From: Methylobacterium aquaticum
GTDB taxonomy: Bacteria > Pseudomonadota > Alphaproteobacteria > Rhizobiales > Beijerinckiaceae
Direction: 5' to 3'
Assembly: GCF_016804325.1 (NCBI RefSeq)
Contig: NZ_CP043627.1
Location: 4,933,501-4,997,500 of the forward strand
DNA length: 64,000 nucleotides
The notes below the pieces were generated by a model. It made no database searches and was not told where the DNA came from. It saw only the letters and a program-made list of their open reading frames with translations. A program made the position numbers and the translations under genes. Within the stretch, counting starts at the first letter, position 1. Each line of letters starts with the position of its first letter. Positions 1,304 to 62,250 of the stretch are shown here, piece by piece.

Positions 1304-1347
1304 TGGAGGATATCAGGTCTTGATCGGCTCGCGCCGACACACCCTCA

Positions 1348-1564
1348 GAGCCTGTTTGATTGGCTCAAGCACTGATCCCCACACGCGACCTCATCCTGAG
1401 GTGTCAGTCGATTGAAAATCGACTGACCTCGAAGGAGAGCTCCAGGGATCACGTAGATTTCTGGAGCCCTCCTTCGAGGCTCCTTACAGTCGCACCTCAG
1501 GATGAGGTCGCGAGAGGGATAGGACAGGTCGTCGCGGCTAGATTTTTGTAAGTCAAACAGACTC
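1348..1564. mobile_element. Family A non-autonomous element, copy 1
   Basis: A 217-bp element with inverted ends GAGCCTGTTTGA (1348) and TCAAACAGACTC (ending 1564), flanked by TCA on both sides (1345-1347, 1565-1567). The core holds CCTCATCCTGAGGTG and its inverse CACCTCAGGATGAGG, an inner hairpin around TCGATTGAAAATCGA, and a second arm pair near CCTCGAAGGAG/CTCCTTCGAGG. It encodes no protein. The right-hand TCA is the TGA stop codon of the minus-strand hydrolase gene, so that gene ends exactly at the element boundary. Confidence 0.75.
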
Positions 1565-2518
1565 TCAGAGTTCCATCAGGTCCCGGCCCACCACGATCTC
1601 GCCCTTGAAGTGCGGCCGCACCGCCTCGAGCCAGACCTCGTCCTTGATGAACGGGTAGCCGCCCGGCACGAAATGCGACAGGACCAGCGTCTTCACGCCG
1701 GCCTCGGTGGCGACGCGCCCGACCTCCTCGGTGGTGGTATGGCTCGCGATCAGGTGCTCGCGCAGGGTCTTGGCGTTGGGTTCGGTGGCGATCAGCTTGT
1801 CGAGCTCGGGCAGGTACATGACCTCGTGGACGAGGATGTCGGCGCCCTTGGCGAGCGCGATCAGGTTCGGCGAGTAGCGGGTATCGCCCGAGATCACGAT
1901 CGACCGGTCGGGACAATCGAAGCGGAAGGCGAAGGCCGGCTCGACCGGCGGATGCTGCACCAGGGCGGCCGTGACGGTGACGCGCTCGTCGCGCATCACC
2001 TCTCCGGGTCCGGTGACCTCGTGCGGCACGATCAGGTCGGCGAGCGGCGGCCGGCCCTCGTCGGCCATGCGGGTCGTGATGTCGGATTCGTTGAGCTCGA
2101 GGAACTGGCGCGTCATCCGGACGAGCGGCGGCGGCCCGTAGGTGTTCACCCGGTGGGCGAGGTCGGTCGCCCAGGCGAGCAGGAGCACGTTGCCGTAATC
2201 GGCGTTGTGGTCCGAATGCTGGTGGGTGAGGAACATCGAATCGAGGGAGCCGAGCTTCAGCTTGGCCAGCACCATCTGCCGGCCGGTGCCGTTGCCGGCA
2301 TCGATCAGGTAGGTGTGCCCGTCGATCACGATGGCCTGGGCCGGCGCGGCGCGGTTCGGCTTCGGCGTCGGGCCGCCGGCGGTCCCGAGCAGGATCAGCC
2401 GCGAACGGCGCGGGGCGGGCGTCTGCGCCGCGGCACCCCGGGTGGAGAGGAGCGTCGCCAGGGCCGCCGTACCGCCGAGGATCGTCCGTCGGCTCGGGAG
2501 AAGGGTGTCGTCGGGCAT
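1565..2518 (-). CDS. Tat-exported metallo-beta-lactamase-fold hydrolase
   Basis: 317-residue MBL-fold metal hydrolase. A twin-arginine signal (SRRTILGG, then a hydrophobic stretch ending AAA near residue 31) indicates folded export to the periplasm. The metal motif HQHSDH is at residues 99-104 (family HxHxDH), with later ligand-like motifs SGDTRYSP and a C-terminal SHF. The layout resembles RNase Z/arylsulfatase-type MBL enzymes. The ATG at 2518 places the Tat motif at the N terminus; the longer upstream frame has no such signal. Substrate is unknown. The TGA stop abuts a mobile element. Confidence 0.85.
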   Translation of the reverse strand: MPDDTLLPSRRTILGGTAALATLLSTRGAAAQTPAPRRSRLILLGTAGGPTPKPNRAAPAQAIVIDGHTYLIDAGNGTGRQMVLAKLKLGSLDSMFLTHQHSDHNADYGNVLLLAWATDLAHRVNTYGPPPLVRMTRQFLELNESDITTRMADEGRPPLADLIVPHEVTGPGEVMRDERVTVTAALVQHPPVEPAFAFRFDCPDRSIVISGDTRYSPNLIALAKGADILVHEVMYLPELDKLIATEPNAKTLREHLIASHTTTEEVGRVATEAGVKTLVLSHFVPGGYPFIKDEVWLEAVRPHFKGEIVVGRDLMEL

Positions 2519-2744
2519 CGTGTCGTCTCGCCTGTGGCTGCGTCCGGTCGTGCTGCGCTCGTCATGGACGGGGGCGGTCCCGTCAAGGCGCGCAGGCCGC
2601 CGTCCCGGAGCGCGGGCGACACCATGCCCGGTTCGTGCGAGAGCACCACCGCGAGGGTGTCGAGGCTGTGGCGGAGCGGCCAGCCGCGTGAGGCGGACGG
2701 GGCCGTGCGGTCCCAGCCATGACCCACGGCGAGGAGCGGAATAG

Positions 2745-3221
2745 ATGACCGTCCGAAATCGCGCCGTGTCACGCAGAGCCCGGGCCGGCCTCGTCCTGTC
2801 CTGCGCGCTCCTGCTCTCGGCCTGCGCGGACGACGACGGCGCGGCGCGGCGGCGCATGCTCGGCGAGCATCCGGGTCTCGAAGCGGCGTTGCGCGTCGCC
2901 GATCCGCGCCGGGGCGGCCGCCTCTTCGGGCAATGCGCCGCCTGCCACACGGTCGGCCCCGGCGCCGGCGACCGCAACGGTCCCAACCTCTTCGACGTGA
3001 TGAACAAGCCGGTCGCGAGCAACAGCCCGCGCTACGGCTACACGGCGGCGCTGGGCGCCCTGGGCGGCACCTGGACGCCGGAGGCGATGGACCGCTGGCT
3101 CGCCGATCCGGGCAAGGTCGCGCCCGGCACGCGCATGCGCTTCGGGGGCCTTGCCGATCCGCTGGATCGGGCGGACGTCATCGCCTACCTGCAATCGCAA
3201 TCGGCAGCCTCGGCGCGGTGA
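2745..3221 (+). CDS. Lipoprotein cytochrome c
   Basis: 158-residue class I c-type cytochrome. A lipobox (LLLSAC, Cys27) points to lipid anchoring on the periplasmic face of a membrane. The heme motif CAACH is at residues 64-68, and Met131 (in GTRMRF) is the likely sixth ligand. The GPNLF-x-GYT pattern is typical of cytochrome c550/c2 relatives. AGGAG about 10 bases upstream supports the start. It probably carries electrons in periplasmic respiration, but no dedicated oxidase or dehydrogenase gene lies beside it. An FNR/FixK-type regulator is encoded convergently just downstream. Confidence 0.88.
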   Translation: MTVRNRAVSRRARAGLVLSCALLLSACADDDGAARRRMLGEHPGLEAALRVADPRRGGRLFGQCAACHTVGPGAGDRNGPNLFDVMNKPVASNSPRYGYTAALGALGGTWTPEAMDRWLADPGKVAPGTRMRFGGLADPLDRADVIAYLQSQSAASAR

Positions 3222-3297: not shown

Positions 3298-3969
3298 TCA
3301 CGCATTCAGGCGGCGGAGCGCCGCCTTGTCCCGGAGCAGGACGGTGCGGCGATGGGCCGGCAGCGCGATGACCCCGTCCCGCTCCAGCCGGGTCAGGGTG
3401 CGCGAGACGCTCTCGATCGTCAGGCCGAGATGGTCGGCGATGTCGGTCCGCGACATCGGCAGCGCGATTGCGCCGTCCGTCCCGGCCCGCTCCGCGAGAC
3501 CGAGGAGGAAGCTCGCGACGCGCTCACGCGCCGACTTGCGGCCGAGCAGCATCATGTGATCCTGCGCCCGCTCCAGCGCCCGCAGCATCGCCGCCACCAC
3601 CTCCTGGGCGAGCGCCCCGGCCCCTCCGGTCAGCGCCTCGCGGTCGCCGCGACGGAAGGCGGCGAGCGTGGTGCCGGTGAGCGCGTCGGCGCCGGTCCGC
3701 CGCTCGGCGCCGGCCTCGAGGCCGAAGATGTCGCCCGGCAGGTGGAAGCCGTCGATCTGCCGGCGTCCGTCGCTCAGGAGCCGGTAGGTCCGCACCGCGC
3801 CGGACACGACCTTGTAGAAATGCACCACGCGGTCGCCCTCGGCGTAGATCTCCTCCCCGGCCTCGAAGCGGCGGCGCGTGCCGGCGTCCGTGCCGTCCTG
3901 CCGGCTCCGGAGGGCTGGCGCGGCCTCGAACACGGGGCCGAGGCCGGCGGTGGCGAGCGCGAGCTGCAT
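3298..3969 (-). CDS. Crp/Fnr-family regulator (FixK-like, no cysteines)
   Basis: 223-residue transcription factor: an N-terminal cyclic-nucleotide-binding-like jelly roll (about 35-140), a dimer helix, then a winged helix with MSRTDIADHLGLTIESVSRTLTRL. The E-xx-SR recognition pattern is the FNR/FixK type that reads TTGAT-like half sites. The protein has no cysteine, so an FNR-style iron-sulfur oxygen sensor is excluded; FixK-like action, or sensing by another route, is more likely. A candidate site, TTGCGCTGGATCAA, lies at 5030, upstream of the nearby CBS protein gene. The name fixK is not assigned because FixLJ is not visible here. Confidence 0.85.
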   Translation of the reverse strand: MQLALATAGLGPVFEAAPALRSRQDGTDAGTRRRFEAGEEIYAEGDRVVHFYKVVSGAVRTYRLLSDGRRQIDGFHLPGDIFGLEAGAERRTGADALTGTTLAAFRRGDREALTGGAGALAQEVVAAMLRALERAQDHMMLLGRKSARERVASFLLGLAERAGTDGAIALPMSRTDIADHLGLTIESVSRTLTRLERDGVIALPAHRRTVLLRDKAALRRLNA

Positions 3970-4065
3970 GGGGATCCCTCGTCCGGGTAGCGTGCGACGA
4001 CAGGGTTACGGCAGCGGGGAATGGCGCGACATTCCGGTCCAGCGCGTAAGGGATTTCCCTTAGTC

Positions 4066-4126
4066 CTCAGGCAAGGTTCTCAGGCAAGGTTCTCAGGCAA
4101 GGTTCTCAGGCAAGGTTCTCAGGCAA
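4066..4126. repeat. 13-bp tandem repeat, 4.7 copies
   Basis: CTCAGGCAAGGTT is repeated head to tail four times exactly (4066-4117) plus nine bases. It lies between the Crp/Fnr gene and a decayed receiver gene and overlaps the latter's 3' end. The repeat is direct with no spacers, so it is not a CRISPR array. Confidence 0.9.
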
Positions 4127-6032: not shown

Positions 6033-6249
6033 GAGATTGTTTGATCGACTCCAGCACTTACCCCCACACACGACCTCATCCTGAGGTGTCAGTCGATTGA
6101 AAATCGACTGACCTCGAAGGAGGGCTCTAGGGATCGCGAAGACTTCTGGAGCCCTCCTTCGAGGCTCCTTTCAGTCGCACCTCAGGATGAGGTCGCGAGA
6201 GGGATGGGAAAAGGTCGTTGCAGCTAATTTTCGCAAGTCGAACAGGATC
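6033..6249. mobile_element. Family A non-autonomous element, copy 2
   Basis: 217 bp, the same length as copy 1. It begins GAGATTGTTTGA, ends TCGAACAGGATC, and has the same nested core (CCTCATCCTGAGGTG, TCGATTGAAAATCGA hairpin, inverse arm CACCTCAGGATGAGG). The flanks are TGA on the left and TGC on the right, so a triplet duplication is not intact here. Its left end has been hit by the AT-rich 187-bp element. Confidence 0.7.
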
Positions 6250-6354
6250 TGCTACCCTCCTCGTCGTTCCGCGGCCGCGAAAGCGGAGCCTGAAACCGCG
6301 GATGGTTCAGGATCGGGCGGCGATCGTCCCACCTTTCTTGAAACACCGGAGCGT

Positions 6355-6391
6355 CTGGATTCCGGGCTCCGTTGTCGCGGCCCCGGAATGA
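6355..6391. repeat. REP-like palindrome (family B)
   Basis: TCTGGATTCCGGGCTCC...GGCCCCGGAATGACC, a single copy between the family A element and the 3' end of the acyl-CoA synthetase gene. Confidence 0.65.
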
Positions 6392-6446
6392 CCCCGTGTG
6401 GTGGAAATGGAGTGCTCACTGGATTTCAGCGTCCAGGTCGGCCGGC

Positions 6447-8125: not shown

Positions 8126-8223
8126 ATTCGTTTTTTGGTGTCAACATGGGTGGGGGCGGGATGCGCGACGGGGATAGCAGGAGGGCGCGTGCAATCATGA
8201 CCCTCACCGCGTCCCATCCGCGC

Positions 8224-8350
8224 CCTCATCCTGAGGTGTTGGCCGATCCGCGATCGGCTGACCTCGAAGGAGGGCTCCAGGGATCGCGAGACTTCTGGAA
8301 GTCTCCTTCGAGGTCAGTCCATCAAGATGGACTGACACCTCAGGATGAGG
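8224..8350. repeat. Family A palindromic core without terminal ends
   Basis: Same nested palindrome as the family A elements (outer arms CCTCATCCTGAGGTG/CACCTCAGGATGAGG, inner CCTCGAAGGAGGGCTCCAG), but no GAGCCTGTTTGA-like end is present on either side. It lies between the acyl-CoA synthetase and permease genes. A second hairpin (AGTCCATCAAGATGGACT) replaces part of the right arm. Confidence 0.7.
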
Positions 8351-8386
8351 TCGCGGGTGGGACGGATGGAGGATGAATGATCCCCC

Positions 8387-14972: not shown

Positions 14973-15110
14973 GGCATCCCGGGGCCGCGCAGCGGCGCCC
15001 GGGATCCAGAGCCGCCGAGTGTCCAGAATACGGCGGATCGCGTTACGATTGATCCTGTCCCACCTGCGGTTCTGGATTCCGGGCTCCGCTGCGCGGCCCC
15101 GGAATGACCA
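14973..15110. repeat. Opposed pair of REP-like palindromes (family B)
   Basis: GCATCCCGGGGCCGCGC...GGGATCCAGA (14973-15013) faces an inverted relative TTCTGGATTCCGGGCTCC...CCCCGGAATGACC (15070-15110) across about 56 bases. Both are palindromic. The pair sits between the 3' ends of convergent genes and could form a large bidirectional hairpin. Confidence 0.7.
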
Positions 15111-15149
15111 GGAGGGTGGACGGTTTTACTGAGCAAGTTGCACGAACCG

Positions 15150-20200: not shown

Positions 20201-21274
20201 CTAGATCGCGCGCTTCGGCGCGGCCTGCAGGAAATCCTGGAGCTGCTGCTTGTAGAACCGGGCGAAGGCCGTGGTGCCGTGCCCGGTGGTCTCGGCGCTG
20301 GCCGGGATCAGGTAGAGGCGCCCGGTCTTCAGCCGCTTCATTTCGCGCTCCATGATCCCCGTCTCGGGCGGGTTGCGCTCGTCATCCGCCGAGTTGATCG
20401 CCAGGACGGGCGCTTCGATCGTCTCGAGGCCCGGGGAGGGATTGTAGCCGCGCGACGAATCCCACTGGTAGATGTAGTCGTTGGCATCCGCGCTGAACGG
20501 CTGGTTCAGGCGCGCATCCACCAGCTTGTCGGCCAGCGCCCCGGTCGGCGCCTGCTTCTGCAGGGCGAGCGTGCCGCCGCTGGTGGCCAGGGCGAAGAAC
20601 ACGTTGGCGACCCGCAGGGATGGCGGCTGCGTCGTGTACTCGCCGTTCGCGTAGGCCGGGTCGCGCCGGATGGTCTCGGTCAGCAGCCGGCGCATGATCC
20701 AGTTGCGGCTTCCCATCTCGCTCGGTTGCGCCGCCATCGGGACGAGGGCGTCCATGTACCCGGGATGCTTCACGCCCAGGATCCAGGCATGCATCCCGCC
20801 CATCGAGTTGCCGATGACCAGGCGGACGTGGTTGAGGCCGAGATGCTCCTTGAGCAGCCGGTACTGCGCCTCCGCCATGTCGTCGTAGTTGTAGCGCGGG
20901 AACTTCGCCTTCAATCCGTCCGACGGCTTGGACGATCGTCCGTGGCCGATCGCGTCCGGGATGACGATGTAATACTTGGCCGCGTCGAGCGGCTGGCCGG
21001 GGCCGAACAGCTCGCCGGCGAATCCCGGCGTCAGCATGCTGGCGGCCGAGCCGGTGGTGCCGTGCAGGACGACCACCGGTTCTCCCTTCGGATCCCCGAT
21101 CGTGGTGTAGTGCAGGCGCAGCTCCGGCAGGACGTCGCCGGTGTGGAACTTGAAGTCCTTGATCGTCCAGTCGCCTTCCTTGGGCGCCGGGTAGTCGGCG
21201 GCGAGGGCCGCGAGGGCGATCAGCGACAGGGCCGCGCCCGCTGCCGCGGTGCGCAGCAGCCTCAAGGCTCGCAT
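20201..21274 (-). CDS. Exported alpha/beta hydrolase (homoserine acetyltransferase-like fold)
   Basis: 357-residue hydrolase with signal peptide MRALRLLRTAAAGAALSLIALAALAA. The fold and spacing follow the MetX/homoserine O-acetyltransferase group: LHGTTGSAASM oxyanion region, nucleophile GNSMGGMHAW, acid NSADDERNPP, and His in TTGHGTTAF. Export makes a biosynthetic MetX role unlikely; an esterase or amidase in the periplasm fits better. GGAGGAAA directly before ATG 21274 supports the start. A 7-bp tandem repeat lies about 85 bases upstream. Confidence 0.85.
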   Translation of the reverse strand: MRALRLLRTAAAGAALSLIALAALAADYPAPKEGDWTIKDFKFHTGDVLPELRLHYTTIGDPKGEPVVVLHGTTGSAASMLTPGFAGELFGPGQPLDAAKYYIVIPDAIGHGRSSKPSDGLKAKFPRYNYDDMAEAQYRLLKEHLGLNHVRLVIGNSMGGMHAWILGVKHPGYMDALVPMAAQPSEMGSRNWIMRRLLTETIRRDPAYANGEYTTQPPSLRVANVFFALATSGGTLALQKQAPTGALADKLVDARLNQPFSADANDYIYQWDSSRGYNPSPGLETIEAPVLAINSADDERNPPETGIMEREMKRLKTGRLYLIPASAETTGHGTTAFARFYKQQLQDFLQAAPKRAI

Positions 21275-21358
21275 GGGGTTTCCTCCGCAAAATCGTTTGT
21301 TGTTGGAAGAGCGCCGGGTGACCGCCCTGGCGAGGATCGGGCTCCCGGCTCGTACAGG

Positions 21359-21400
21359 CAACGGGCAACGGGCAACGAGCAACGAGCAACGAGCAACGGG
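21359..21400. repeat. 7-bp tandem repeat, six copies
   Basis: CAACGGG, CAACGGG, CAACGAG, CAACGAG, CAACGAG, CAACGGG in direct order. It lies in the 291-bp divergent gap between the exported hydrolase and the antiporter. Unit number could change by slippage and alter promoter spacing. Confidence 0.9.
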
Positions 21401-21565
21401 CGCTTGCCCTCGCCGACCGCCTTGACGGTGTTTCAGGAACCGGTCAAGCGCGCCCCGGTTGACGCTCGCTCGAAGCGAGAGGACACGAGAGACCCGCGTG
21501 CGAGAAACCAGCGTCCCTGCGTCCTCCCCTCACCCCGGGCTTCTCCTCCCGACGGGCTCGGCCGC

Positions 21566-23752
21566 ATGAGGACGGCGCTCCTCGTCGTCGCGCTGCTCGC
21601 CGCCGGCACCGCCCACGCCGCCGGAATCGGCTCGGGCGGCGGCCCGTCCGAGGTGGTGCTCGTCGTCCAGATCGTCCTGCTCCTCACCGTCGGGCGCCTG
21701 CTCGGCGAGGCGATGCTGCGGATCGGGCAGCCGGCGGTGATGGGCCAGCTCTTGGCCGGCATCCTGCTCGGCCCCTCCTTCCTCGGGGCTTTGTGGCCGG
21801 ACGCGCAACATTGGCTGTTTCCGCCCGGCCGCGACCAGAAGGCGCTCCTCGACGGCATCGCCCAGCTCGGCATCCTGCTCCTGCTGCTGATGACCGGCAT
21901 GGAGACCGACCTCGCCCTGGTGCGCAAGGTCCGGCGCGCGGCGCTCAGCGTCTCGGTCACCGGCGTCGCGGTGCCGTTCGGCTGCGGCTTCCTGCTCGGC
22001 TGGTTCCTGCCCGAGGCGATGCTGCCGCATCCGGAACTGCGCCTCGTCACCGCGCTCTTCCTCGGCACCGCGCTCGCGATCTCGTCGGTCAAGATCGTCG
22101 CCATGGTGGTGCGCGAGATGAACTTCCTGCGCCGCAACGTCGGCCAGGTCATCGTCGCCTCGGCGATCATCGACGACACGATCGGCTGGGTCATCATCGC
22201 GGTCATCTTCAGCCTGGCGCAGGCCGGCACGATCGACCCGTGGGAGGTCGGCCGCAGCCTTGCCGGCACCCTGGCCTTCCTCGGGCTCAGCCTCACGGTC
22301 GGGCGCCGCCTCGTCTTCTGGCTGATCCGCTGGGCCAACGACTCGCTGCGCAGCGAGGCCGCGGTGATCACCGCGATCCTGGTGCTGATGGGGGTGCTGG
22401 CGCTGATCACGCAGGCCATCGGCGTGCATACGGTGCTCGGCGCCTTCGTGGCCGGCCTTCTCGTCGGCCAGTCTCCGATCCTGACGAAGCGCATCGACGA
22501 GCAGCTGCGCGGCGTCGTCACCGCCCTGTTCGCGCCGATCTTCTTCGGGCTCGCCGGCCTGAGCGCCGACCTCACCATCCTGCGCGACCCCCGCCTCCTG
22601 CTCCTCACCCTCGGGCTCATCGCCATCGCGAGCCTCGGCAAGTTCGCCGGCGCCTTCGCGGGCGGGCTGCTCGGGGGCCTGCGGCGGTCGGAATCCCTGG
22701 CGCTCGCCTGCGGCATGAATGCCCGCGGCTCGACCGAGGTGATCGTCGCCTCGATCGGGCTCGGCATGGGGGCGCTGAGCCAGGACCTGTTCACGATGAT
22801 CGTCGCCATGGCGTTGATCACCACCCTGGCGATGCCGCCGACCCTGCGCTGGGCGCTCCACCGCCTGCCGCTCAAGGGCGAGGAGAAGGAGCGGCTGGAG
22901 CGCGAGGCGGCGGAGGAGAGCGGCTTCGTCGCCAATCTCGAACGCCTGCTCGTCGCCGCCGATGACGGCCCGAAGGGTCGCTTCGCCGCGCGGCTCGCCG
23001 GCCTCGTCGCCGGCTCGCGCGGCATGCCGGTCACGGTGGTGCGGCTGGGCGCCGCGACGGACGAGGCCGTCCTGTCGGGCGCGGTGACGGAGGCGGCGCG
23101 GGGCGCCCGGCAGGGAACGGACGACGAGGACGCCGCGGCGGTCGAGGTGACGGAACTCGCCCGCGAGGCGCCCGCCGCGGAGGTCGTGGGCGAGGAGGCC
23201 GCCAAGGGCTACGATCTCCTGATCGTCGGCATCGATCCGACGGTGGCGCCCGATGGCGGGCTCGCCGACGCGGTGGCGCAGGCCGCGGAGCGCTTCGACG
23301 GACCGCTCGCCATCACGGCGGCGCGGGGGTCGCACAGCCGGGACCCGGAGCGGGCCGCCCTGTCGGTCCTGGCGGTGATCGACGGCACCCGGGCCGCCCG
23401 GCGCGGCGCCGAGATCGCCGTGACCCTGGCCCGCGGCGCGAGTGCGCCGTTGACGGTGCTGTTCCTCTCGCAGGCCGCCGGGACCCGGCGCCTCACCGGT
23501 TTGGCCCAAGGCGATTCGGAGGCGCTGCGCGACGTGCTCGATCTCGCCGAGCAGGCGGGCCTACGGGTGCGGACGCAGGTGCGCGCCACGCGGGCGCTCG
23601 AGCGCGAGATCCTGCGCCAGGCCCGGGCCGGCGATCACGACTTGATCGTGATGGGGGTCACCCGCCGTTCCGGCGAGGGGGCGGCCTTCGGCCCCCTGGC
23701 GGAAACGGTGCTGGAGGCGTCCGACCGGTCGGTGCTGTTTCTGGCGAGCTGA
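21566..23752 (+). CDS. CPA2 cation/proton antiporter with two C-terminal Usp domains
   Basis: 728 residues. A signal-like N terminus and about 12 transmembrane helices (to about residue 430) form a Na+/K+:H+ exchanger of the CPA2/KefB-like family, with AIIDDTIGW in the core (the Asp pair of transport) and GMNARGSTEVIVA. The cytoplasmic C terminus holds two universal-stress-protein-like modules (about 455-590 and 595-728; second with LSVLAVIDGTRAARRG and GDHDLIVMGVTRRSGEG). This arrangement suggests nucleotide or stress control of ion exchange. The TGA stop is also the left target triplet of a family A element. A weak ribosome-binding site leaves the start somewhat uncertain. Confidence 0.88.
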   Translation: MRTALLVVALLAAGTAHAAGIGSGGGPSEVVLVVQIVLLLTVGRLLGEAMLRIGQPAVMGQLLAGILLGPSFLGALWPDAQHWLFPPGRDQKALLDGIAQLGILLLLLMTGMETDLALVRKVRRAALSVSVTGVAVPFGCGFLLGWFLPEAMLPHPELRLVTALFLGTALAISSVKIVAMVVREMNFLRRNVGQVIVASAIIDDTIGWVIIAVIFSLAQAGTIDPWEVGRSLAGTLAFLGLSLTVGRRLVFWLIRWANDSLRSEAAVITAILVLMGVLALITQAIGVHTVLGAFVAGLLVGQSPILTKRIDEQLRGVVTALFAPIFFGLAGLSADLTILRDPRLLLLTLGLIAIASLGKFAGAFAGGLLGGLRRSESLALACGMNARGSTEVIVASIGLGMGALSQDLFTMIVAMALITTLAMPPTLRWALHRLPLKGEEKERLEREAAEESGFVANLERLLVAADDGPKGRFAARLAGLVAGSRGMPVTVVRLGAATDEAVLSGAVTEAARGARQGTDDEDAAAVEVTELAREAPAAEVVGEEAAKGYDLLIVGIDPTVAPDGGLADAVAQAAERFDGPLAITAARGSHSRDPERAALSVLAVIDGTRAARRGAEIAVTLARGASAPLTVLFLSQAAGTRRLTGLAQGDSEALRDVLDLAEQAGLRVRTQVRATRALEREILRQARAGDHDLIVMGVTRRSGEGAAFGPLAETVLEASDRSVLFLAS

Positions 23753-23967
23753 AAACCTGTTTGGCCGATCGGTGGATTTTCTCCCCTCCGCGACCTCATC
23801 CTGAGGTGTTAGTCGATTGAAGATCGACTGACCTCGAAGGAGGGCTCCAGCTATCGCTGAGATTTCTGGAGCCCTCCTTCGAGGCCGCTACGCGGCACCT
23901 CAGGATGAGGTTGTGGGATGGACAGGAATTTTCACCACGGTGCAGCCCGAGCAAGTCGAACAGGCTC
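23753..23967. mobile_element. Family A non-autonomous element, copy 3 (cleanest)
   Basis: 215 bp from AAACCTGTTTGG (23753) to AAGTCGAACAGGCTC (ending 23967), flanked by TGA on both sides (23750-23752, 23968-23970). The left TGA is the antiporter stop codon. The core carries CCTCATCCTGAGGTG, a TCGATTGAAGATCGA hairpin, CCTCGAAGGAGGGCTCCAG and the inverse arms. A TNA triplet duplication is what some IS5-family transposases produce, so one of these could mobilise it. Confidence 0.8.
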
Positions 23968-23989
23968 TGAGAGAACAATGAGCCGACGC

Positions 23990-24463
23990 TCAATTCCGGT
24001 CGTCCGGCAAGGACGGCAGCGGCTGCACCGCGATCCCCTCCTCCATGAGCGAGCGCGCCTCGTTGAGGCTCGCCTCGCCGTAGATCGCCCGCTGCTCGGC
24101 CTCGCCGTAATGCATCTTCCGGGCTTCCGTCGCGAAATTCTCGCCGACATGGTCGGCGGTGCGGGCGACGTGCTCGTGCAGGGCGCGGATCATCGCGCGC
24201 AGCTGCCGCTCGGGCTCCGAGACCAGGCTGACCGGCGCCTCCGCCGGCGCAGGCGTCGCAGGTACGCTCGGCGCCTCGACCGGAGCCGGCAGTGTCGCCG
24301 CGCGGCCGAGCGAGGGCGCCATGATCTGCTTGGCCACCTTCGGGCTGTTGCAGAACGGACAGGTCACGAAGCCGGCCCGGACCTGCTCGTCGTAGGACTC
24401 GCTCGACGGGAACCAGCTCTCGAAGCTGTGGCCGGACTCGCAGGACAGGGCGTAGCGGATCAT
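23990..24463 (-). CDS. DUF1178 zinc-ribbon protein
   Basis: 157-residue DUF1178 family member. MIRYALSCESGHSFESWFPSSESYDEQ is the family signature, and C-x2-C at TCPFCNS with the earlier Cys/His forms a small zinc ribbon. The middle is Ala/Pro-rich, and the end has the conserved helical block HVGENFATEARKMHYGE. Function unknown. It lies downstream of a nitrilase and grxC on the same strand, an order conserved in many alphaproteobacteria, which hints at a link to glutathione or redox metabolism. Confidence 0.88.
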   Translation of the reverse strand: MIRYALSCESGHSFESWFPSSESYDEQVRAGFVTCPFCNSPKVAKQIMAPSLGRAATLPAPVEAPSVPATPAPAEAPVSLVSEPERQLRAMIRALHEHVARTADHVGENFATEARKMHYGEAEQRAIYGEASLNEARSLMEEGIAVQPLPSLPDDRN

Positions 24464-28755: not shown

Positions 28756-29040
28756 GGCACGTCCTTGAAAGAAAACCCTCGGGCCGGCAGCGGCGGCCCC
28801 CTCGTGGTGGTCGCCCATCGATGCATGCGCGCGCGCAGGCGACAAGTGCAGCGCGGCCGGGATCGGCGAAGCGGGTGGTCGAGGATGGAGATTCGGGGAG
28901 GAAAAACACGAGGCGTGCCCTCCCCGACACGCTCGCATCGATCGCGAACGCTGCGGTCCGACCCTTCCAGGATCGTGATGCGACTGGCGCCCGGACCGCG
29001 GAAGCTTTTTCGGCTCTCCCGCCGACACTGTCACCCTCCG
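28756..29040. other. Intergenic, no gene seen
   Basis: Upstream region of the TerB-family gene. It contains a short ATGCATGCGCGCGC stretch and no convincing reading frame, terminator or known repeat. Confidence 0.5.
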
Positions 29041-29183
29041 AGTCATCCCGGGGCCGCGAAAGCGGAGCCCGGGATCCATAACCGCCGACGATGCAAGATG
29101 AAGCGGAACGCTACCCGCCTTGTCCGGCGTCGCCAGCGGCTATGGATCCCGGGTTCTCGCCTACGGCGAGCCCCGGGATGACA
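29041..29183. repeat. Opposed pair of REP-like palindromes (family B)
   Basis: GTCATCCCGGGGCCGCGAAAG...CCCGGGATCCATA (29041-29084) faces ATGGATCCCGGGTTCTCG...CCCCGGGATGAC (29136-29183) across about 50 bases. Each unit is palindromic, and together they make a larger inverted structure. The pair is placed between two minus-strand genes. Confidence 0.75.
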
Positions 29184-43729: not shown

Positions 43730-43768
43730 CGCGTCTGTTTTCAGCGCCGGCTGGCTGACATCCGCAGG

Positions 43769-43907
43769 GTCATTCCGGGGCCGCGACAGCGGAGCCCGGA
43801 ATCCAGAACCGCAGGTGGTTCAGAGAAGGACGGACGACCGTTCCGCTTCGATCTCCGCCACCTGAGTTTCTGGATCCCGGGCTCCGCTGCGCGGCCCCGG
43901 GATGACC
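43769..43907. repeat. Opposed pair of REP-like palindromes (family B)
   Basis: GTCATTCCGGGGCCGCGACAG...CCGGAATCCAGAA (43769-43813) faces TTCTGGATCCCGGGCTCC...CCCCGGGATGACC (43867-43907) across about 55 bases. It follows the M20 gene and precedes the Nudix gene. Confidence 0.75.
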
Positions 43908-45950: not shown

Positions 45951-46049
45951 CTCGGGAGGTTGGCGAGGGACGTTTCACTCGCCAACCGGGTCAGGTCCGG
46001 AAGGAAGCAGCCCTAACGAGACCGAGCGGGTTTTCGTCCAGCCTCCCAC
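45951..46049 (+). ncRNA. ffs: Small SRP RNA (4.5S-like)
   Basis: Contains the conserved SRP54-binding domain GGTCAGGTCCGGAAGGAAG (45989-46007) and CAGCCCTAACGAG, the asymmetric/symmetric loop sequence of bacterial SRP RNA. GGGAGG near the 5' end pairs with CCTCCC near 46042-46047 to close the long hairpin, followed by CCCTTTTCC. The location directly upstream of dnaX is conserved in alphaproteobacteria. Exact ends are estimated. Confidence 0.92.
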
Positions 46050-46112
46050 CCTTTTCCTTTCAGGAGCGCGTGCGCCCCCTCCCGGGGGCCGGCCTCACGA
46101 CCCTGCGAGCGC

Positions 46113-52006: not shown

Positions 52007-52253
52007 GAGCCTGTTTGAGCAGAGTGATTTGACAAAAACTGAGAAGAATTAGGAGATATCCTACCCTTCCACCTCATCCTGAGGTGTTAGTCGATTGAAA
52101 ATCAACTGACCTCGAAGGAGGGCTCCAGAAGCCTCTGCGATCCCTGGAGCCCTCCTTCGAGGCTCACTTCGTTCGCACCTCAGGATGAGGTTAGAGGGTA
52201 GGATGATTCCGCTCGCCTCAAGTCCTGGGTGGAAATCCTGCTCAAACAGGCTC
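52007..52253. mobile_element. Family A non-autonomous element, copy 4
   Basis: 247 bp with perfect 16-bp inverted ends GAGCCTGTTTGAGCAG and CTGCTCAAACAGGCTC. The nested core is the same as in the other copies (CCTCATCCTGAGGTG, TCGATTGAAAATCAA, CCTCGAAGGAGGGCTCCAG). Flanks are TGA and TAA, so a duplication is not exact. It is about 30 bases longer than the other copies because of extra sequence near both ends. Confidence 0.8.
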
Positions 52254-59741: not shown

Positions 59742-60119
59742 ATGACCCGCGGCGAGATCTGGACCGTCTCAGGCGGCAAGGACTACGCCGGCAAGCCGCG
59801 CCCTGCCGTCATCCTTCAGGACGATGCCTTCGCGGCAACCGATTCCATCACGATCTGCGCCTTCACGACCGACCCCACGGACGCACCCTTGTTCAGACTT
59901 CCCATCATCCCGAATGACGGTAACGGCCTGCGAGCCCCATGCCGCCTGATGGTCGACAAGATCACGACCGTGCCGCGGCAGAAGATCGGAGTTCACATCG
60001 GCGGCCTCGACGCGGCTGACATGAATCGTCTCGACGAAGCCGTACTAGTCTTCCTCGGGCTCGCCGGCGCCCTGGCGGGCAGCGGCCCCGCCCGTAGCCG
60101 CGGCGGACGGACATCATGA
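59742..60119 (+). CDS. mazF: MazF-family mRNA interferase toxin
   Basis: 125 residues. MTRGEIWTVSGGKDYAGKPRPAVILQDD is the PemK/MazF fold start (RGEIW, RPAV), ITICAFTTDP and CRLMVDKITTVPRQKIG carry the conserved Arg/Thr region. It cleaves mRNA at short sequences when free. Its stop overlaps the gpsA start (ATGA at 60116-60119), so the toxin and an essential lipid gene are translationally coupled. The C-terminal 17 residues (AGSGPARSRGGRTS) extend past the usual end. Confidence 0.87.
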   Translation: MTRGEIWTVSGGKDYAGKPRPAVILQDDAFAATDSITICAFTTDPTDAPLFRLPIIPNDGNGLRAPCRLMVDKITTVPRQKIGVHIGGLDAADMNRLDEAVLVFLGLAGALAGSGPARSRGGRTS

Positions 60120-61111
60120 CTGGCATCGGCCCGATCGCGGTCCTGGGCGGCGGGGCCTGGGGCACGGCGCTCGCCAACGCGGCAGCCTCCGCCGCCGAGC
60201 GGCCGGTGGTGCTGTGGATGCGCGATGCAAACAGTGCCGCCGACATGGCCCGCTCCCGCGAGAATGCCCGCCACCTCCCCGGCGTGACGCTGCATCCGGG
60301 CGTGCGCCCCACCGCCGCCGCCGCGGACCTCGCCGAGGCCGAGGCGGTTCTGGTGGTGACGCCGGCCCAGACGCTGCGAGGCGTGCTGGTCGCCTTGCGC
60401 CCGCAGTTGCGGCCCGACGCCGCCCTGATCCTGTGCGCCAAGGGTATCGAGCGCGGCACCGACGCCTTCCTGACCGACGTCGCCGCCGAGGCCGCGCCGG
60501 GCGCGCCCATCGCGGTGCTGTCCGGCCCGAGCTTCGCGGCGGATGTCGCCCGCGGGTTGCCGACCGCCGTGACGCTGGCGAGCCGCGACGGCGCCCTGGC
60601 GGCGCATCTGGCTGCGGCCCTTTCCGGGCCGACCTTCCGGGTCTATCACGGCAGCGACCCGCGCGGGGTCGAGATCGGCGGGGCGGCCAAGAACGTGCTC
60701 GCCATCGCCTGCGGGGCGGCGATCGGCCGGGGCCTCGGGGAGAGCGCCCGGGCGGCCCTCGTCGCCCGCAGCTTCGCCGAACTGATGCGCTTTGCCCGCG
60801 CCTGGGACGCCTCCCCAGAGACCCTGATGGGCCTGTCCGGGCTCGGCGACCTGGTGCTCACCGCCGCCTCGGCGCAATCGCGCAACTTCGCCTTCGGCGA
60901 ACGGCTCGGGCGCGGCACGAGCCTGGCGGAAGCCTCCGGCGGCAAGCTCGCGGAAGGAGCGCTCACCGCGCAGGGGCTGGTGGCGCTGGCCCGCCGCCGC
61001 GGGGTCGAGATGCCGGTCGCCGAGGCGGTGGCCGGCCTGGTAGCCGGCACGCTTCAGCTCGACGAGGCCATCGCCGGCCTGCTCAGCCGGCCCCTGCGGG
61101 CGGAGATGTGA
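60116..61111 (+). CDS. gpsA: Glycerol-3-phosphate dehydrogenase [NAD(P)+]
   Basis: 331-residue enzyme making sn-glycerol 3-phosphate for phospholipids. NAD site IAVLGGGAWGTALANAA (residues 7-23), LCAKGIERGTDAFLTDV, SGPSFAADVARGLPTAV, catalytic Lys in EIGGAAKNVLAIACG, and LSGLGDLVLT. The tsaD-gpsA linkage is common in alphaproteobacteria, here with a GNAT and mazEF between. Its TGA stop abuts a family A-like end at 61112. Confidence 0.95.
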   Translation: MTGIGPIAVLGGGAWGTALANAAASAAERPVVLWMRDANSAADMARSRENARHLPGVTLHPGVRPTAAAADLAEAEAVLVVTPAQTLRGVLVALRPQLRPDAALILCAKGIERGTDAFLTDVAAEAAPGAPIAVLSGPSFAADVARGLPTAVTLASRDGALAAHLAAALSGPTFRVYHGSDPRGVEIGGAAKNVLAIACGAAIGRGLGESARAALVARSFAELMRFARAWDASPETLMGLSGLGDLVLTAASAQSRNFAFGERLGRGTSLAEASGGKLAEGALTAQGLVALARRRGVEMPVAEAVAGLVAGTLQLDEAIAGLLSRPLRAEM

Positions 61112-61126
61112 GAGCCAGTTTGATCG
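61112..61126. repeat. Solo family A-like end at the gpsA stop
   Basis: GAGCCAGTTTGATCG begins directly after the gpsA TGA. It matches the left end of copy 2 at 12 of 15 positions. No palindromic core follows; transposase remnants begin about 115 bases on, so the rest was probably replaced. Confidence 0.5.
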
Positions 61127-61226
61127 TCTGCTCGCAAGCGCTCGGTGACGCTTCCTTTTACCCACATCCATGGTCAAGCTTGGAGCGTTGTGGGATCGGC
61201 CTCACCGGTGATTTGTTGGGAGACAC

Positions 61227-62167
61227 TTGAACTCCTGGAAGACGAAGTGTTCCATGCCCGTTGCCACACGGTGCCGGTGGGAAGAGAAACTGGTCGGTAG
61301 CACTTTTGCCGATGCCCGCCTCGAGCAGCGGCTGCACCGGCTCGTCGGACATATGGGCCGTAGCCTCGGCGCCAGCGTGCCATTTGCCTGCCAGGACTGG
61401 GCCAGCACCAAAGTCGTATACTGTTTTTTCCGACGAATGGGTCAGCGAGGCGCAGATCCTGTCGGGTCACTTCGCATCGACACGCGAGCGTGTGCGGGCC
61501 AGTGAGGACCCTATATTGGTCCTCCAGGATACGACCGAGTTCACGTTCCAGCGCGAGAGACATGAGGCCGTCGGGATCACCCGCACCGTCACCACGGGGC
61601 GCGACAAGGCAGGTCAGGTTCGCATGCACACGCTGTATGGTCTGCTCATGCATGCCTCGCTCGCGGTGACCACCGACGGCCTGTCGCTCGGGCTTGCGGC
61701 GGTGAAGTTCTGGTCGCGGCAGAAGTTCAAAGGCGCGAACGCGGTCAAGTGCAAGGTCAATCCGAACCACGTACCGATCGAGTAGAGAGAGAGCTTCCGC
61801 TGGCTGGAGAGCCTTCGCCAGTCCACATCGCTGTTTGCCGCGCCGGACCGTTGCATGCATATCGGTGACCGGAAGAGCGACATCTACGAACTCTTCTTTC
61901 TGGCCCATGATCTTGGCACGCACCTCATCATGCGCAGCTGCGTCGATCGGCTGGCCGGGTGACGGCCAGCACACGATCGCCAACGAGATGATGAGGTCGC
62001 CGTCATCAGCCTTCATCGGATCGAGGTTCGCGATCAGCGAGGGCGGCTCGTCACCGCCTCGGTCGAATTCCGCTATCGCCGCATCACGGTTCTGCCGCCG
62101 ATCGGCAAGCAAAAGCGCTATCCCCCGCTTTCGCTCACGGTCCTGCACGCACGTGAGCCGGACACGC
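61227..62167 (+). pseudogene. Tn5-like (IS4-family) transposase, broken and truncated
   Basis: Pieces read in order: WEEKLVGSTFADARLEQRL...CQDWASTKVVYCFF; frame change near 61433; WVSEAQILSGHFASTRERV, ILVLQDTTEF (first catalytic Asp); TAG at 61783; RESFRWLESLRQST, CMHIGDRKSDIYELF (second Asp), MRSCVDRLAG; frame change near 61962 and a lost base near 61992; HRIEVRD, FRYRRITVLPPIGKQKRYP. The C-terminal third with the catalytic Glu is missing because an IS21-family end begins near 62168. Not functional. Confidence 0.85.
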
Positions 62168-62250
62168 TGTCAAACGGCATCGGAACGGGACCCCTGATCG
62201 GCGTCCAATCGGGCCCCCTTGTTGAGCATGCGCGACGCCCCTGCTCAGCC

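Follow-up and report, generated by a model that had tools for sequence, protein, structure and literature searches.

The 215-bp element that directly follows the stop codon of a Na+/H+ antiporter gene in Methylobacterium aquaticum is one of a family of miniature inverted-repeat elements (MITEs) in Methylobacterium. These elements are non-autonomous, have ends of 12–13 bp (GAGCCTGTTTGA(G)) and are flanked by a duplicated TSA triplet. We consider it probable (roughly 0.82) that this is an IS5-related MITE family duplicating TSA within a CTSAG-like target, and that its copies at stop codons are surviving insertions that did no damage. The window analyzed here is the whole stretch of 64,000 nucleotides, corresponding to positions 4933501–4997500 of contig C1 of the 7.28-Mb genome (label G000); the GC content is 70% in the genome stretches sampled. 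The features discussed below are the following, in window positions:

1345..1347, TCA, distal triplet at the hydrolase MITE (TGA on the gene strand)
1348..1564, MITE of subfamily A, 217 bp, between TCA triplets
1565..3022 (-), metallo-hydrolase gene (ORF; PF12706/PF00753), with its TGA stop at 1565-1567 (TCA on the plus strand) as the proximal target copy
6033..6249, MITE of subfamily A, flanks TGA/TGC, away from called stops
20279..23752 (+), Na+/H+ antiporter gene with C-terminal Usp domain (ORF; PF00999 and PF00582)
23750-23752, TGA stop of the antiporter gene, proximal target copy
23753..23967, MITE, 215 bp, old copy with degenerate 12-bp inverted ends, subterminal stretches and a palindromic core
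23788..23916, core 1 (palindromic) of the antiporter MITE, an outer stem with three hairpins
23968..23970, TGA, distal copy of the duplicated triplet
52007..52253, MITE of subfamily B, 247 bp, flanks TGA/TAA, away from called stops
60116..61111 (+), gpsA (glycerol-3-phosphate dehydrogenase; PF07479, PF01210), with its TGA stop at 61109-61111
61112..61134 (+), lone end of a core-2 (subfamily C) MITE, directly after the gpsA stop, beginning GAGCCAGTTTGA

The initial annotation had placed a mobile element exactly at the antiporter stop codon, with the TGA duplicated. This was confirmed: the first base of the MITE lies directly 3' of the TGA, and a second TGA follows its far end (23750-23752 and 23968-23970). 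The best neighbor identity of this copy is 0.76–0.77, and its ends (AAACCTGTTTGG and GAGCCTGTTCGA) match each other in 8 of 12 bases. The same layout, described earlier for 1345-1567, was recovered as TCA, 217 bp and TCA at the minus-strand hydrolase stop, and the solo end reported at 61109-61126 is indeed present after the gpsA TGA. The gpsA remnant matches a full 238-bp copy elsewhere at 22 of 23 bases and is regarded as a lone end because the match to that copy spans 23 bp only. Just past it, frames at 61261-62197 presumably resemble an IS4/Tn5-type transposase, and a mobile element at this position may have truncated the gpsA-side MITE; a Pfam search of two frames within 61261-62197 gave no match. 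Two window copies, at 6033-6249 and 52007-52253, had not been listed before. Lone end-like motifs with one mismatch were observed at 1206 (GAGCCTGCTTGA) and 51977 (GAGCCTGTTCGA). Searched against Rfam with gathering thresholds, the window yielded the bacterial small SRP RNA (45954-46050) and nothing beyond it.

Related genomes point to the probable order of events at these three loci. At the antiporter locus, 12 of 13 relatives' loci are without the insert, with TGA as the stop codon in 11 and TAA in one (G001). The insertion is shared, at the identical place, with the sister species (G071), and the flank in genome G010 aligns well with the far flank of this genome. All nine relatives at the hydrolase locus lack the element and end in TGA (9/9); the flank alignment with the sister species is gapped and weak there. 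The nearest relatives at gpsA, among the matches listed for the named collection, are M. aquaticum, M. frigidaeris, M. nonmethylotrophicum, M. variabile and M. indicum (89–92% identity). All six named relatives are without the element (6/6), and five have TGA at the codon in question. In relatives that lack the element, the stop codon is thus TGA with few exceptions. At these three loci the stop is therefore most likely older than the insertion, and the TGA was then duplicated. The earlier proposal that duplication preserves the stop is also borne out: the TGA is restored and the gene is intact.

Across the genome, the end motif GAGYCTGTTTGA has 256 matches with at most one mismatch, compared to 9 for a reversed control. 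All pairing counts are based on a set of at least 201 distinct ends with some additions. Pairing the listed ends at a spacing of up to 420 bp yielded at least 107 candidate elements, which by end signature comprise group B (43), group A (24), smaller groups and A/B mixtures. Identical TNA flanks were present in 58 of the 107 paired candidates among the ends listed, hereafter the verified copies; the 49 remaining pairs, some of them decayed, nested or chance pairs, were left out. The verified copies are 141–417 bp long (mostly 215–263 bp), and their triplets are TCA (31), TGA (25) and TAA (2), as anticipated by the earlier suggestion of an IS5-like duplication of TNA. The elements are short, non-coding, multicopy, bounded by terminal inverted repeats and flanked by a target duplication. 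They have ends in common with an autonomous transposon, which was found in same-genus genomes and only as remnants here, and the three window loci pair an occupied site with relatives lacking the insert, which identifies them as MITEs that have been mobile. The target resembles CTSAG: a C precedes and a G follows the TSA in 35 of 56 copies, whereas only 8.5% of the TSA sites located in stops or non-coding DNA have this context. In a second genome (G039), the CTSAG context was found for 11 of 40 copies vs 10.7% of sites. In the genome studied here, 18 of the 58 verified copies are inserted in TCCTGAGG, the arm of a palindromic repeat.

The interior of the MITEs is itself a palindromic repeat, and copies of this repeat are found on their own elsewhere in the genome. 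By motif search, palindrome 1 (arms CCTCATCCTGAGG) is present in 52 of the 58 verified elements and palindrome 2 (arms CGTCATCCCGGGGC) in four; the remaining two are short copies with one palindrome-1 arm. Within 244 kb (the window plus control stretches), each palindrome is represented by 10 sets of paired arms. In the window, palindrome 1 lies at 8212-8366, where matching transposon ends were not found, and copies of the palindrome-2 type (CGTCATCCCGGGGC) lie at 6250-6392, 14975-15117, 29032-29182 and 43755-43906, the first of which adjoins the MITE at 6033-6249. The idea that all of these are REP-like palindromic repeats rather than transposons, with ends and flanking triplets that match by coincidence, is scarcely credible. 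Palindrome-1 arm pairs do occur outside paired ends in 51 of 132 cases, some of them interrupted copies, but this reading leaves unexplained the identical TNA flanks of 58 of the 107 pairs, the relatives without the insert and the presence of the same ends on a full-length insertion sequence.

This insertion sequence is the partner that the initial annotation had suggested looking for, namely an IS5-family element with the same ends, and it was found as a 919–921-bp IS in genomes of the same genus, with remnants here. Of 111 genomes of the genus, 47 contain exact matches to CTSAGAGCCTGTTTGA, the present one among them, and the control gave one match overall. In genome G012, a 284-aa transposase is present in eight near-identical copies. 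It matches PF13340 (70.2 bits), PF01609 (69.3 bits) and the NCBIfam IS5 model NF033580 (161.7 bits, cut-off 110); judged by their sequences, the copies suggest recent movement. Ten IS copies with MITE-type ends were examined in four genomes (seven in G012, and others in G065, G055 and G063). They were chosen for matching both ends, and L275 (diverged ends) as well as L280 and L285 (one end found) were left out. Nine of the ten have identical TNA flanks, and the copy in G065 carries a TAG within the transposase frame. Sequence common to the MITEs and the G012 IS is confined to 13–15 bp at the ends. Like IS5-family elements with a TNA duplication, the partner IS combines a PF13340/PF01609 DDE transposase, GAG-type ends, a 3-bp TNA duplication and a length of about 0.9 kb, whereas the window MITEs have no transposase, common ends of 13–15 bp and a palindromic repeat as cargo. 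The subgroup of IS5 that duplicates TNA is, we assume, the IS1031-like group.

In the M. aquaticum genome itself, three matches to the G012-type transposase were obtained (E ≤ 1e-20). The best remnant, with 67% identity, is a partial transposase frame at 458148-458693. The degenerate end near it seems to have received an insertion of a subfamily-B MITE; a second remnant is a 127-bp IS-end match within 4319068-4319223. No intact IS with MITE-type ends was found among pairs up to 420 bp apart or among wider pairs at IS5-type loci, and none of the 10 matches to DUF4096 IS5-type transposases is bounded by MITE-type ends under the filter used. At 6588582-6588800 of contig C1 (L186), an IS5-type transposase is accompanied by related ends (GAGTCCGTTWGGAAAG) that lie 897 bp apart. 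We infer that the transposase of the partner IS, or of a lost relative, moved the MITEs in trans, presumably through a staggered cut of three bases at TNA. When the target is a TGA stop, the gene is left intact, since the stop is restored by the duplication. Insertions that break genes would be lost, and stops would therefore appear at about the expected rate among the survivors.

Gene calls for the corresponding counts were made with our own script and are not curated. A stop codon is touched by 13 of the 58 verified copies from the listed ends of this genome, and 45 lie elsewhere; at one of the 13 (457730), the frame ends in a degenerate IS end. As a null model we used TSA sites matched for neighboring bases and limited to stops and intergenic DNA. 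The TSA counts leave out the two TAA-flanked copies and, where so stated, copies embedded in repeats. With this model, 12.9 contacts are expected for the 56 TSA-flanked copies, and 13 are observed. None of the 58 copies lies inside a called gene, compared to an expectation of 31.6 of 56 were coding sites equally open. This is a weak test, because an insert breaks the frame, and we therefore also counted gene frames that run into an element, which was the case for 3 of the 58 verified copies. Outside repeats, 13 of 38 copies are at stops vs 8.7 expected (P = 0.07), or vs 10.2 when the longest gene starts are used (P = 0.19). In G039, identical TNA flanks are present in 42 of 68 pairs, 11 of them at stops; no copy lies inside a gene (0/42) and no gene frame enters an element (0/42). 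Leaving out the other 26 of the 68 pairs together with one TTA and one TAA copy, 11 of 40 are at stops vs 6.3 expected (P = 0.04); without the 2 duplicate target sites among the 40, it is 11 of 38 vs 6.3 (P = 0.03) or 7.5 (P = 0.11). For both genomes combined, 24 of 76 copies outside repeats are at stops vs 14.9 expected with trimmed gene starts (P = 0.008) and vs 17.7 with the longest gene starts (P = 0.056). The excess of stops outside repeats is weak and unsettled.

These counts bear on the proposal of the initial annotation that TGA stops are a recurrent target. A transposase that recognizes stop-codon regions, making the family a dedicated stop-codon-targeting element, would account for the three copies from which the idea arose, for the excess outside repeats in the combined set and in G039, and for the 3 of 10 IS copies that touch a stop codon. 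We nevertheless regard it as very unlikely. Most copies (45/58) are elsewhere, 18 of 58 are in TCCTGAGG palindromes, the overall count (13/56) equals the expectation, and the combined excess shrinks with the longest gene starts; moreover, the zone 31–100 bp behind stops is likewise enriched (12 of 38 non-repeat copies vs 4.9 expected, this genome). The comparison with control sites thus gives no enrichment overall, and what stands of the proposal is the weak excess outside repeats (24/76 vs 14.9–17.7). Conversely, stops could be made by insertion, with the element end supplying GAG CCT GTT TGA in frame after the TNA. The MITE end sequence does have a TGA in that frame, and at the verified copy at 5773072 the gene frame on the other side stops exactly at element base 12. 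In addition, the gpsA frame of Methylobacterium sp. WSM2598 (L365, about 2478-2500) is three codons longer and ends at a TGA within GAGCCGGTCTGA, which has two mismatches to the MITE end motif; this stop may be supplied by a decayed MITE end. As a general explanation it is highly improbable, however, as the position of the stop codon is conserved in most relatives at the three window loci and gene frames terminate within the element in 3 of 107 pairs only. Stop contacts are most likely explained mainly by the target sequence and the loss of harmful insertions.

More room is left for a role of retention, in which copies at stops and 3' regions persist longest and the hairpin is useful there (at the mRNA 3' end or as insulation between convergent genes) or simply harmless; we consider this possible, though we lean against it. 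Among the verified copies, 9 of 17 divergent ones (best neighbor identity ≤0.92) are at stops vs 4 of 41 similar ones (P = 0.0008), and a rank test on age gives P = 0.009. However, the trend is weak when the filter for identical flanks is omitted (13/54 vs 5/53, P = 0.07; outside repeats P = 0.29), and it may be biased because a stop codon preserves one copy of the target site duplication. There is no age trend in G039 (P = 0.2). In this genome, 26 of 38 non-repeat copies lie between convergent genes vs 7.6 expected, and convergent gene pairs were considered as an explanation. This fits here and fails in G039, where the bias was not seen (10/42 convergent, 8/42 divergent); selection for 3' regions is not evident in G039 because the convergent bias is absent there.

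The antiporter locus also speaks for retention. Between this genome and the sister species, 4 of 129 core positions of the MITE have changed (96.9%, or about 97%, identity). Outside the core, 20 of its 86 positions differ (identity 73–83%), as do 49 of 185 third codon positions of the antiporter gene. Of the four core changes, one falls on an unpaired base of the predicted fold, two are loop-closing and the fourth lies in a small tip hairpin. The predicted RNA folds of two window elements are much more stable than those of shuffled sequences, with z-scores of -12.0 and -12.6. As far as sequence comparison can tell, the slow change of the core fits selection on the hairpin, and the hairpin may serve as a 3'-end structure because the core was kept while the rest of the element decayed. 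Homogenization between copies is an alternative for the core identity, because over 117 bp the identity is 96.6% for the G071 core and 94.9% for the closest paralogous core of the sampled genome. The initial annotation had suggested that the core acts as a 3' terminator or stabilizes mRNA. No intrinsic terminator with a T-run was found in the antiporter element when 23600-24100 was scanned; the one terminator site in this stretch, at 23979-23992 on the minus strand, is outside the element. What is left of that suggestion is a 3' structure, supported at the antiporter locus only. In old copies generally, the hairpin might conceivably outlast the decay of the ends because it is kept as an RNA or DNA structure at the 3' end. 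A broader scenario, which we find rather doubtful, is that TNA-specific transposition of the IS5 type delivers hairpins to TGA stops, where they are kept while the transposon ends rot, so that some gene-end hairpins would be fossil MITEs; it includes the capture of two kinds of palindromic repeat between the same ends, with the gene unharmed. If the core is truly kept at gene ends, young, old and species-common copies would form a graded series from mobile DNA to 3'-end element.

Bacterial MITEs, as described in a review (PMC10969869), are similar to the family studied here in being short, non-coding, multicopy and intergenic, with inverted ends, a duplicated target, strong hairpins and nested insertions. 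The present elements differ from that description by having at least two unrelated palindromic repeats between ends of the same type, and by repeatedly lying in exact contact with a TGA stop. MiniMdi3 of Methylobacterium extorquens is likewise an IS-related MITE of the same genus; by its description, it is set apart by a length of about 400 bp and its relation to ISMdi3 (PMC2680597). REP palindromes with CGTC or GTAG tags are, according to PMC3733652, found genome-wide and predominantly downstream of genes, and the ends of GTAG REPs often provide TAG stops. By that description, they are 20–40 bp long, whereas the cores reported here are about 90–145 bp and, in our sample, are mostly inside elements bounded by terminal inverted repeats. 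Insertion of IS elements into REP palindromes has been documented (PMC1525189), and in both cases palindromic repeats are targets of a transposase; here, the TCCTGAGG arm that received 18 of the 58 MITEs is part of a repeat which is itself cargo of MITEs of this kind. A search of the open-licence literature by titles and abstract starts turned up nothing on MITEs of this kind preferring stop codons, and no passage mentioning stop codons was found in the MITE review (PMC10969869).

The family is a natural case in which the target triplet of a transposon is the commonest stop codon, and an insertion can be invisible to the gene because of this coincidence. Context-matched counts help to tell targeting from survivorship in such a case, which raw stop-codon tallies cannot do.

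Several copies on contig C1 are composite. The element at 863332-863569 has one subfamily-A end and one subfamily-B end with an intact TCA duplication, which suggests recombination via the common core. At 3483-4075 and 6974730-6975322, subfamily-A ends enclose a subfamily-B element; the two arrangements have identical ends and spacing and lie near both ends of the contig. In the plasmid collection, partial matches to the core region were found in four Methylobacterium records.
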